From Xanthobacteraceae bacterium (GTDB lineage: Bacteria; Pseudomonadota; Alphaproteobacteria; Rhizobiales; Xanthobacteraceae), in contig JAHBZB010000002.1 of the NCBI GenBank assembly GCA_019635635.1, forward strand, positions 891,204 through 955,203: DNA of 64,000 nt, read 5' to 3'. The notes beneath the pieces were generated by a model. That model made no database searches. It was not told the DNA's origin and saw only the letters and a program-made list of their open reading frames with translations. Position 1 is the first letter of the stretch; each line of letters starts with the position of its first letter. This document shows positions 15,837 to 17,698 of this stretch, in pieces. The position numbers and the translations under genes are program-made.

Positions 15837-16232
15837 ATGAATCGCAGGCAGTTCACGGCGCTCGCGCTTGCCGCACTGGCAACGCCGCTTTCCGTCGGCC
15901 GGGCCATGGCGGCCTTTACCGATTACCAGGCCGAGAACTTCGTGCGGCTGCTTTCGAGCGGCGGGCCGGTCGTGGTGCACGTTCACGCCGACTGGTGCCC
16001 GGTCTGCCGCGCCCAGATTCCGGTAATGAACAAGGTGCTGGCGCAGCCGGCCTACAAGAACGTGCGGGCGGTGCGCGTGAACTTCGACAAGGAACAGAAA
16101 TTTCTCGCCGACTATAAAGTCGTGCGGCAGTCCACTATCCTGATCTTCAAGGGCGGAAAGGAAATCGCCCGCCTTTCCTACGAGACCGACCCGGCCCGTA
16201 TCGAGCAGACGCTCGCGCGCGCCATTTCATAA
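15837..16232 (+). CDS. Exported thioredoxin-like protein with CPVC active site
   Basis: The 131-residue protein has a short Arg-containing signal peptide (MNRRQFTALALAALATPLSV, cleavage likely near A25-A26). The thioredoxin fold follows with the redox motif ADWCPVC (C54, C57). The position of the conserved cis-proline reads RQST, so Ser stands where Pro is usual; this is seen in some exported thioredoxin-like families. It probably acts in the periplasm as a thiol reductase or relay. It is the first gene of an operon with the TGA-containing paralogue (12 bp downstream) and ccdA, which would supply electrons across the membrane. GGAGAG is its ribosome-binding site. Confidence 0.9.
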   Translation: MNRRQFTALALAALATPLSVGRAMAAFTDYQAENFVRLLSSGGPVVVHVHADWCPVCRAQIPVMNKVLAQPAYKNVRAVRVNFDKEQKFLADYKVVRQSTILIFKGGKEIARLSYETDPARIEQTLARAIS

Positions 16233-16244
16233 CGGAGCAAAACC

Positions 16245-16637
16245 ATGCGCCGGATTCTCCTCGCTTTCCTCGCGCTCGCCATGACGACTTCGCTTGCCAT
16301 GGCGGCCTTCGTGACCTTCGAGAAAACAAAATTCGACGCGCTCGTGAAATCGAACGCACCGGTCGTGATCCATTCCCACGAATGGTGGTGACCGACCTGC
16401 CGTGCGCAGGCGAATGTCCTGGAAGGACTTCAGAAAGATCCGAAATTCTCGAAAGTGACGCTGTTCCGCGCGAGTGCGAGCGACGAGCGGGAATTCCTTT
16501 CCTCGATCAAGGTTACCTCGCGTAGCGTGATCGTAGTTTACGCAGGCGGCAAGGAAATCGGCCGTCTCAACTGGATAACCGATGCCGCGCAGATCCGCGC
16601 GTTGCTCGAACAGGCGGTAGCGCAGGCAGGCGAATGA
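16245..16637 (+). CDS. Thioredoxin-like protein with in-frame TGA at first redox Cys: candidate selenoprotein (UPTC)
   Basis: Reading through one in-frame TGA (16389-16391, codon 49), this is a 130-residue protein of the same size and architecture as its upstream neighbour: signal peptide MRRILLAFLALAMTTSLAMA, thioredoxin-like fold, and C-terminal helix. HEWW-TGA-PTCRAQ aligns residue for residue with HADW-C-PVCRAQ of the paralogue, so the TGA stands exactly at the N-terminal catalytic Cys. There is no other stop or frameshift, the ribosome-binding site is good (CGGAG, 7 bp), and the terminal TGA overlaps the ccdA ATG. Selenocysteine insertion is the most informative reading; the alternative is a TGC-to-TGA nonsense mutation or a sequencing error. 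Like the paralogue it has Ser at the cis-Pro position. Confidence 0.7.
16396..16433 (+). other. Candidate SECIS-like hairpins downstream of the TGA
   Basis: Two short stem-loops follow the TGA. The first is cctgc/gcagg (16396-16400 with 16406-16410, loop cgtgc), which begins only 4 nt after the codon. The second is ctgga/ttcag (16419-16423 with 16429-16433, one G-U pair, loop aggac); its loop guanines are about 34 nt past the TGA. The second is the better positioned for a bacterial SECIS, which is known to be a small hairpin with G in the apical loop a few tens of nucleotides downstream. Both are short and were found by eye. Confidence 0.35.
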
Positions 16638-17347
16638 CAGCAATCCTTCTCGCGTTCTTCGCCGGCACGTTTACGGTCATCAATCCCTGCATCCTGCCGC
16701 TACTGCCGGTCGTGGTAGCGGCAGCCTTCGCCAACGGAAAATTGGGTGCGGCAGCACTGCTCGCCGGACTGGTCGCAGGCTTCGCAACACTGGGCGTCCT
16801 TGTGAACGCCACCGGTGCGCTGTTCGGAATCGGCGAAAACACGTTGCGGATTGCGGTCGCGATCCTGCTTCTTGTTTTCGCCGCGGTGCTGTTGATCTCA
16901 CCGCTGGAACGGCGCTTTTCCAATCTGGTTGCGCCGGTCGGCGCGGCCGGCGCCAATCTCGCGGCACGCGCGGGAAATTACGGCATCGCAGGTCAGTTCG
17001 CGGTCGGCATCCTGCTAGGGGCGATCTGGGCACCCTGCTCCGGACCTTCGGTCGGGGCAGCACTTTCGCTCGCGGCAGAAGCGGGCGGCTATCTCATCGC
17101 CGCCGCTCGCATGACGGCGTTCGCGCTCGGCGCGGCACTCGTGCTTTTTCTGGTTGCGATCGGTGCACGCTCGCTTGCGAACCGCAGCGGCGGCGTCGCG
17201 AAGATCGCGCCTTATGCGAAGAAAATCGCCGGCAGCGCGTTTCTTCTGGTCGGCGTCCTGATGCTCACCGGGTTCGACCGGCGCATCGAAGCGGTGCTGG
17301 TCGGGTTAATGCCCGACTGGCTCGTTACGTTCACCACGCAATTCTAG
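16634..17347 (+). CDS. ccdA: CcdA-type transmembrane thiol-disulfide reductase
   Basis: The 237-residue protein has six hydrophobic helices. It has the two CcdA/DsbD-beta cysteines, C19 in INPCILPLLP and C135 in WAPCSGPS, each in a Pro-containing helix turn. CcdA proteins carry reducing equivalents from cytoplasmic thioredoxin to periplasmic thioredoxin-like partners. The two exported thioredoxin-like proteins encoded immediately upstream are the obvious partners. The start ATG overlaps the stop of the TGA-containing gene, so ribosomes would normally arrive by reading through that gene. A terminator follows. Confidence 0.93.
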   Translation: MTAILLAFFAGTFTVINPCILPLLPVVVAAAFANGKLGAAALLAGLVAGFATLGVLVNATGALFGIGENTLRIAVAILLLVFAAVLLISPLERRFSNLVAPVGAAGANLAARAGNYGIAGQFAVGILLGAIWAPCSGPSVGAALSLAAEAGGYLIAAARMTAFALGAALVLFLVAIGARSLANRSGGVAKIAPYAKKIAGSAFLLVGVLMLTGFDRRIEAVLVGLMPDWLVTFTTQF

Positions 17348-17395: not shown

Positions 17396-17614
17396 TTAGC
17401 GTGCGTCGGCGCGGCTGACGCACGAGCCGGCCGAGGTCGAATCCTTCGACTTGTCCTTCATGCCCTTCTGACACGCAGCCATGGTGTCGAAGCTGCAATC
17501 GATCTTGTCGGTGCCTTTCAGACAGAAGTTTTTGCTGCCGACGATCTGCGGCGCTTGCGCGGAAGCGGCGGTCATGGCGAAGGCGAGGATGGTTCCAGCA
17601 ATAGCGAGGCGCAT
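17396..17614 (-). CDS. Small secreted Cys-containing protein (DUF3551-like)
   Basis: The 72-residue product has a signal peptide (MRLAIAGTILAFAMTAASAQ) and a short mature part with three cysteines: FCLKGTDKIDCSF, TMAACQKG and GSCVSRADAR. The spacing resembles DUF3551, a family of small exported proteins abundant in rhizobia, of unknown role. I chose the ATG at 17614, with GGGAG upstream; the longer frame adds non-signal sequence. Confidence 0.75.
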   Translation of the reverse strand: MRLAIAGTILAFAMTAASAQAPQIVGSKNFCLKGTDKIDCSFDTMAACQKGMKDKSKDSTSAGSCVSRADAR

Positions 17615-17698
17615 ATTCGTTTCTCCCTTTGACGCCCTCCGTGAGGCGGCAACACGAGGAGACAGGCTTGGTTCCAAAGGAACAAGGTTTTCGCGCGA

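Follow-up and report, generated by a model that had tools for sequence, protein, structure and literature searches.

Three genes form one tight run in the window, the whole 64,000-nucleotide stretch of DNA that was analysed. The first, Trx1 (15837 to 16232, + strand), encodes an exported-type thioredoxin of 131 amino acids with a WCPVC active site (PF00085 48.5 bits, cut-off 23.5), and the last, ccdA (16634 to 17347, + strand), encodes CcdA, a DsbD-type transmembrane electron carrier of 237 amino acids (PF02683, DsbD_TM, 38.3 bits, cut-off 27.1). Between them lies Trx2 (16245 to 16637, + strand), a frame of 130 codons whose ATG follows the Trx1 stop after a gap of 12 bases and whose own stop is overlapped by the ccdA start (ATGA, 16634 to 16637). 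The order Trx1, Trx2, ccdA recurs in five other genomes of the genus (G023, G063, G104, G121 and G152).

Translated from the window, the Trx2 frame reads MRRILLAFLALAMTTSLAMAAFVTFEKTKF...HSHEWW-TGA-PTCRAQ...QAGE-TGA, and its single internal in-frame stop is the TGA at 16389 to 16391 (+ strand), codon 49. Since the active site of the upstream Trx1 reads HADWCPVCRAQ where Trx2 has HEWW-TGA-PTCRAQ, this TGA stands exactly at the first Cys of the CxxC motif. In alignment A1, codon 49 is an invariant Cys column once the TGA is translated as C, which places an in-frame UGA opposite the catalytic Cys of the homologues, and the second active-site Cys codon, the TGC of codon 52 (16398 to 16400, + strand), is invariant as well. 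A preliminary description of this DNA had reported one in-frame TGA in an otherwise intact 130-codon gene, located precisely at the N-terminal Cys of the motif, and both statements hold when the frame, the ccdA overlap, the Trx1 comparison and column 49 are read again. The codon very probably specifies selenocysteine (Sec), in which case Trx2 would be an exported-type thioredoxin of 130 amino acids with a W-U-P-T-C active site; its first 20 residues (16245 to 16304, + strand) look, by eye, like a signal peptide.

With U read as C, Trx2 scores 30.1 bits against PF00085 (gathering score 23.5), its sole Pfam match at E 0.001, and it falls below the curated cut-offs of the NCBIfam equivalogs TrxC NF008229 (39.2 versus 125 bits) and TIGR01068 (34.1 versus 96.8). 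It is a member of the thioredoxin family that lies outside these TrxC and thioredoxin equivalogs. On the opposite strand just past ccdA (17396 to 17677, - strand), the window also encodes a small, exported-looking protein with four Cys, judged by eye to be a possible client of a redox relay.

Selenocysteine decoding and codon 49 in the genus

The genome that contains the window (G000; 3.37 Mb, four contigs, 100% complete) encodes SelB (443.4 bits, cut-off 242.25), SelA (593.6 bits, cut-off 267.9) and SelD (426 bits, cut-off 125), along with a tRNA-Sec that ARAGORN identifies and RF01852 scores at 80 bits; the Rfam model also scores two other G000 genes (50.7 and 48.1, gathering score 47), which ARAGORN calls tRNA-Ser. 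All four components on which the preliminary description had made its reading depend (selA, selB, selC for tRNA-Sec, and selD) are present in this one genome. The sel genes lie near fdhE and formate dehydrogenase genes, and fdhA, which encodes the formate dehydrogenase large subunit (1388.8 bits), has one in-frame TGA of its own. Given the sel genes, the tRNA-Sec and this TGA-containing fdhA, decoding of UGA as Sec is very probably already at work in this cell.

The tRNA-Sec gene (G000:C2, L003 1342-1437) lies wholly within the 3' end of the selB frame (L003:1318-3390), an arrangement known in other Rhizobiales (PMC8124441; here and below, published papers are cited from excerpts). A lipoate-protein-ligase-like gene (G000:C2, L109:4114-5267; 100.4 bits, below the cut-off of 280) adjoins selB and selD, and a search of NCBIfam at E 1e-8 gave nothing for the tested part (L109, 4117-4500) of the frame beside it.

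Our genus sample comprises eight genomes (G000, G023, G063, G085, G104, G121, G137 and G152). Codon 49 of Trx2 is TGA in G000 and in G023 (record JAHBZE01, a Xanthobacteraceae MAG), TGC in G104 and G063, and TGT in G121 and G152. G085 has Trx1, ccdA and a Sec system and is without Trx2, and G137, which is 72% complete, gave no Trx2 match. The preliminary description held that stops elsewhere in the orthologues would count against a selenoprotein; the five orthologues (G023, G104, G063, G121 and G152) have no further in-frame stop.

Machinery and TGA codon go together in the genus, with one exception. SelB scores above its cut-off in G000, G023, G085 and G152 (and in 80 of 198 genomes of the family), and a selB search at E 1e-60 gave no match in G063, G104, G121 or G137. 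SelD is above its cut-off in four of the 12 genomes tested (G000, G023, G085 and G037), as is FdhA in four of the eight genus genomes (G000, G023, G085 and G152). Both TGA genomes carry selB and selD, with a tRNA-Sec also present in G023, and three of the four Cys genomes (G063, G104 and G121) are without selB, selD and fdhA above the cut-offs. The exception is G152, in which selB, tRNA-Sec and fdhA are present, yet Trx2 has Cys; selD was not found in this genome, which is 86% complete. As a separate observation, the fdhA of G023 (L095) has a TAG at match codon 137 besides the TGA at 195, which may be real or an assembly error. If it is real, the retention of Sec decoding in that organism could depend more on Trx2.

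TGA is one base away from TGC and TGT, the codons found in the Cys relatives. A competing view put forward in the preliminary description was that Trx2 has lost its Cys codon and become a pseudogene, or that the TGA stems from an error in sequencing or assembly. The comparison of G000 with G023 argues strongly against both. The same TGA occurs in these separate genomes even though their Trx2 genes differ by 27% at synonymous sites, and frame, length and ccdA overlap are intact in both. Before the TGA, the two genes differ by 9 synonymous and 6 nonsynonymous changes (dN/dS 0.169), and after it by 16 synonymous and 2 nonsynonymous changes (dN/dS 0.032), as compared with dN/dS values of 0.083 for Trx1 and 0.046 for CcdA. 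Two or fewer nonsynonymous changes among the 18 past the TGA would be expected under neutrality with P = 1.2e-8. The part of Trx2 past the apparent stop is therefore under strong protein-level constraint. Since the TGA is kept in G023 and selection continues downstream of it, we consider a decaying gene or a read error to be ruled out, with a probability close to nil.

The hairpin past the UGA and a second case in the class

A bSECIS-like hairpin, GAA-U-GUCCU-GGA-AGGAC-UUC, lies at 16412 to 16431 (+ strand) and is identical in G023. It has a 5-bp upper stem, a bulged U and a loop that begins with G, and the spacing from the UGA to this loop is 29 nt. The hairpin of G000 fdhA (GG-U-GUCCA-GUU-UGGGC-CC, spacing 19 nt) has in common with it the bulged U, the GUCC on the 5' strand and the G-first loop. 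According to the bSECIS model, the loop has 3-9 nt, the upper stem 4-16 bp, a G stands in the first two loop positions, the spacing is 16-37 nt and the MFE is at most -7.5 (PMC13188914). The geometry of the Trx2 hairpin (loop 3, stem 5, GG, spacing 29) fits this description. When coded without the energy filter, however, the same general geometry fits about 60% of all window positions, so the fit proves nothing, and we rejected generic geometry as proof of Sec insertion. The 20-nt hairpin alone has a folding energy of -5.7 kcal/mol and a 41-nt stretch one of -15.1 kcal/mol; when G000 and G023 stretches running 41-62 nt from the UGA are compared with shuffled sequences, the z-scores lie between -0.5 and -2.3, which is a weak signal.

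An FdhA-like hairpin criterion, framed after both the Trx2 and fdhA hairpins had been seen, picks out 9 of 1473 TGA, 20 of 2716 TGC and 8 of 958 TGT sites in the window, and 129 of 18266 sampled positions. It picks out Trx2 of G000, G023 and G104 as well as fdhA itself, and passes over the Trx2 orthologues of G063, G121, G152, G015, G032 and G037; the Cys relative G104 thus retains a near-identical hairpin. G000 and G023 do not differ at all in codons 54-71 of Trx2. This lack of change has P = 0.005 for codons 54-70, which were picked after viewing the alignment, and P = 0.11 for the longest unchanged run anywhere past the TGA. For the same pair, the excess at silent sites of codons 54-64 is borderline (P = 0.058), and the silent sites of these codons have no significant excess conservation between G000 and the four Cys relatives (P 0.15 to 0.71). 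Looking for a SECIS element past 16391, as the preliminary description had suggested, hence turns up a SECIS-like hairpin whose likeness to that of fdhA is, by itself, modest evidence for Sec insertion.

Searches beyond the genus indicate how seldom a TGA occupies this position. In the family search, 111 of 198 genomes gave a match (E 0.001), and at least 28 matches contain a TGA; among the matches listed, G000 and G023 alone have it in the active site, as against 0 of 26 others. In the order search, 114 of 397 genomes gave a match (E 1e-12; about 10 candidates scored per genome), and among the matches listed only Trx2 of the window has an in-frame stop. At the level of the class, 27 of 385 genomes gave a match (E 1e-14; again about 10 candidates scored per genome), and an in-frame stop occurs in two of the matches listed, Trx2 and a thioredoxin of G858, at the same active-site position. 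G858 belongs to another family of the class, and its exported-type UGTC thioredoxin comes directly after ccdA (L169:5001-6235). The gene begins 29 nt past ccdA (PF02683 53.9 bits) and has its TGA at the first Cys (EW-TGA-GTC, codon 57). This genome carries selB (430.9 bits), which is adjoined, by eye, by a selA-like frame; Rfam at gathering score found nothing in the 34 kb around this selB, and ARAGORN found no tRNA in the 4.9 kb around it. The hairpin of the G858 gene (GAUC-CGUGU-GAUC, 21 nt) fits the general geometry and is missing the bulged U. The G858 thioredoxin also matches 67 plasmid records; among the 30 of these that were listed, the two without an annotated feature at the matching site both have Cys.

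The UGA might instead be a true stop that serves as a switch, either through regulated termination or through read-through by a near-cognate tRNA, such that a truncated protein and a little of the full-length form, lacking Sec, would be made. In favour of this idea, our data consist of DNA only and the hairpin is not strong by itself. It is nonetheless very improbable, as the codon sits exactly where the catalytic Cys belongs, selB is present in all three genomes with an active-site TGA (G000, G023 and G858), and G000 has the full machinery for placing Sec at UGA. The explanation as a whole, that Trx2 is a genuine selenoprotein, an exported-type thioredoxin with Sec at UGA codon 49, has in our estimate a probability of about 0.95. 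The candidate thioredoxin-fold selenoprotein (U-P-T-C) of the preliminary description is in this way supported by the machinery, by the TGA of G023 and by the selection past it.

Likely origin of the selenocysteine form

In a tree built from 11 genes of the region (rooted on G015 and G032, with the partial G152 left out and ccdA taken from tblastn), G085 splits first, and the Sec pair then stands beside (G104,(G063,G121)), with bootstrap values of 97-100%. When G152 is added, two nodes drop to 51 and 62%, and G152 is not placeable. A midpoint-rooted tree of 36 thioredoxin sequences, hand-picked from the retrieved loci, groups the Sec pair with G063 and G121 (99%), inside Cys branches. The trees disagree on the place of G104. 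A small trx2 tree gives weak support (54%) to a place of the Sec pair next to the four Cys congeners together, and the first genus trees, from trx1, trx2 and ccdA alone, were poorly resolved. In every tree, the history with the fewest steps has Cys changing to Sec in the ancestor of G000 and G023. This is most likely how the Sec form came about, in the common ancestor of the G000 species and G023, a lineage that would already have been using Sec decoding for formate dehydrogenase.

The 36-sequence tree bears on two other relationships. The preliminary description called Trx1 the upstream paralogue of Trx2; a Cys thioredoxin does adjoin Trx2, but Trx1 falls outside the group that holds it (82%) and is, judging from this tree, not a recent copy. 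The G858 sequence falls outside the Trx2 clade (100%), among other Cys thioredoxins, with its exact place supported by less than 80%, and its Sec appears to be a separate event.

A different history, which leaves the nature of Trx2 itself untouched, is that the ancestor of the genus had a Sec Trx2 and that the Cys species reverted, most of them after losing the Sec system. The near-identical hairpin kept by G104, which has Cys and in which selB was not found, gives this scenario some weight, since remnant SECIS-like structures after Cys codons have been taken as a sign of a Sec ancestor (PMC1794560); the three Cys genomes without selB, selD and fdhA above the cut-offs would also agree with it. 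We suspect that it is unlikely, however, because the Trx2 relatives outside the genus (G015, G032 and G037) have Cys, G152 has selB but Cys, a single gain takes fewer steps in the trees than a gain followed by reversion, and changes from Sec to Cys are rare according to PMC1794560 and PMC13188914. Whichever way the change went, one genus holds a natural series: Sec with full machinery (G000 and G023), Cys with selB and tRNA-Sec (G152), Cys without selB and selD (G063, G104 and G121), and machinery without Trx2 (G085). How a redox protein gains Sec can therefore be tested with close partners.

A possible CcdA-fed relay and its known counterparts

The known CcdA and DsbD families suggest a route for electrons that starts at cytoplasmic thioredoxin, passes through CcdA and ends at exported thioredoxins, and the CcdA-coupled members of the latter group include CcmG/ResA, TlpA and SoxW. 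To our knowledge, all of these use Cys. By analogy, we suspect that electrons pass from cytoplasmic thioredoxin to CcdA and on to both Trx1 and Trx2, a relay of CcdA, Cys thioredoxin and Sec thioredoxin that we infer from gene order and family knowledge. SelB would deliver Sec-tRNA(Sec) to codon 49, guided by the hairpin at 16412 to 16431, and the exported Trx2 would carry the U-P-T-C active site, the selenol of which would reduce a putative envelope target. Placed at the attacking position, a selenol would be expected to speed this reduction.

Two PF02683 proteins each are found in G000 and G023. Among the DsbD_TM frames listed, long ones (712-729 aa) occur in G063, G104, G121 and G085, one of 524 aa lies near a contig end in G152, and no long DsbD frame occurs in G000 or G023; the one long frame examined, that of G063, has DsbD_N, DsbD_TM and a C-terminal Trx domain. 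There is thus a weak indication that, in the Sec species, the small CcdA may take on a larger share of the work, standing in for full-length DsbD, although the lack of a long listed frame in these two species would count as a single evolutionary event at most.

With the G858 gene as a second case next to ccdA, thioredoxins fed by CcdA may be sites at which Sec is favoured. That the class has placed Sec more than once in a CcdA-adjacent exported thioredoxin, separately in this genus and in the lineage of G858, is a tentative proposal that we rate somewhat short of even odds. If it is true, CcdA-to-selenol electron transfer across the membrane would be a recurrent solution. Ordinary gene calling would probably cut or miss genes such as Trx2. 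In the excerpt of a 2006 survey, Alphaproteobacteria appear with one selenoprotein family, FdhA, and Table 1 has no assigned Sec/Cys conversion for thioredoxin (PMC1794560). Trx2 would add a second selenoprotein to the kind of genome in which that survey found formate dehydrogenase alone. We found no earlier report of the Trx2 Sec thioredoxin in the open-access literature, seen in excerpts, an absence that carries little weight because the literature covered was open-access only.

Among known systems, Trx2 resembles CcmG/ResA, TlpA and SoxW in being a small exported-type thioredoxin encoded beside a CcdA-type carrier of the DsbD_TM family, a position shared by the G858 gene, and it departs from these Cys proteins in that one of the two tandem thioredoxins here would use Sec. 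Selenoproteins with a UxxC or UGC motif have been predicted among DsbG-like, thiol:disulfide interchange (PF13098) and TlpA-like proteins (PMC13188914, Table 1). Like them, Trx2 would be a Trx-fold redox protein with Sec in its motif, but those are other families, and Trx2 matches PF00085 only. SaoT (NF040730) and an HUIPC-motif thioredoxin-like selenoprotein (NF047660), both named in PMC13188914, are likewise thioredoxin-like with UxxC, whereas Trx2 matches neither model at E 0.001. Closest is the Sec-containing thioredoxin of PF00085 with UxxC, which is experimentally verified according to Table 1 of PMC13188914 (see also PMC9312934), and the Sargasso Sea survey recorded a Sec thioredoxin as well (PMC1088965). 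As in the verified protein, the Trx2 domain scores above the Pfam cut-off and Sec would occupy the first CxxC position; Trx2 may differ in its signal peptide (by eye), and it does differ in its place in a Trx1-Trx2-ccdA run and in its source, the records of its genus being named as Xanthobacteraceae and Hyphomicrobiales MAGs. The verified protein is, we presume, that of Treponema denticola. Because the Sec thioredoxin with UxxC is already a verified family, Trx2 would be a further member of it in an uncommon setting.
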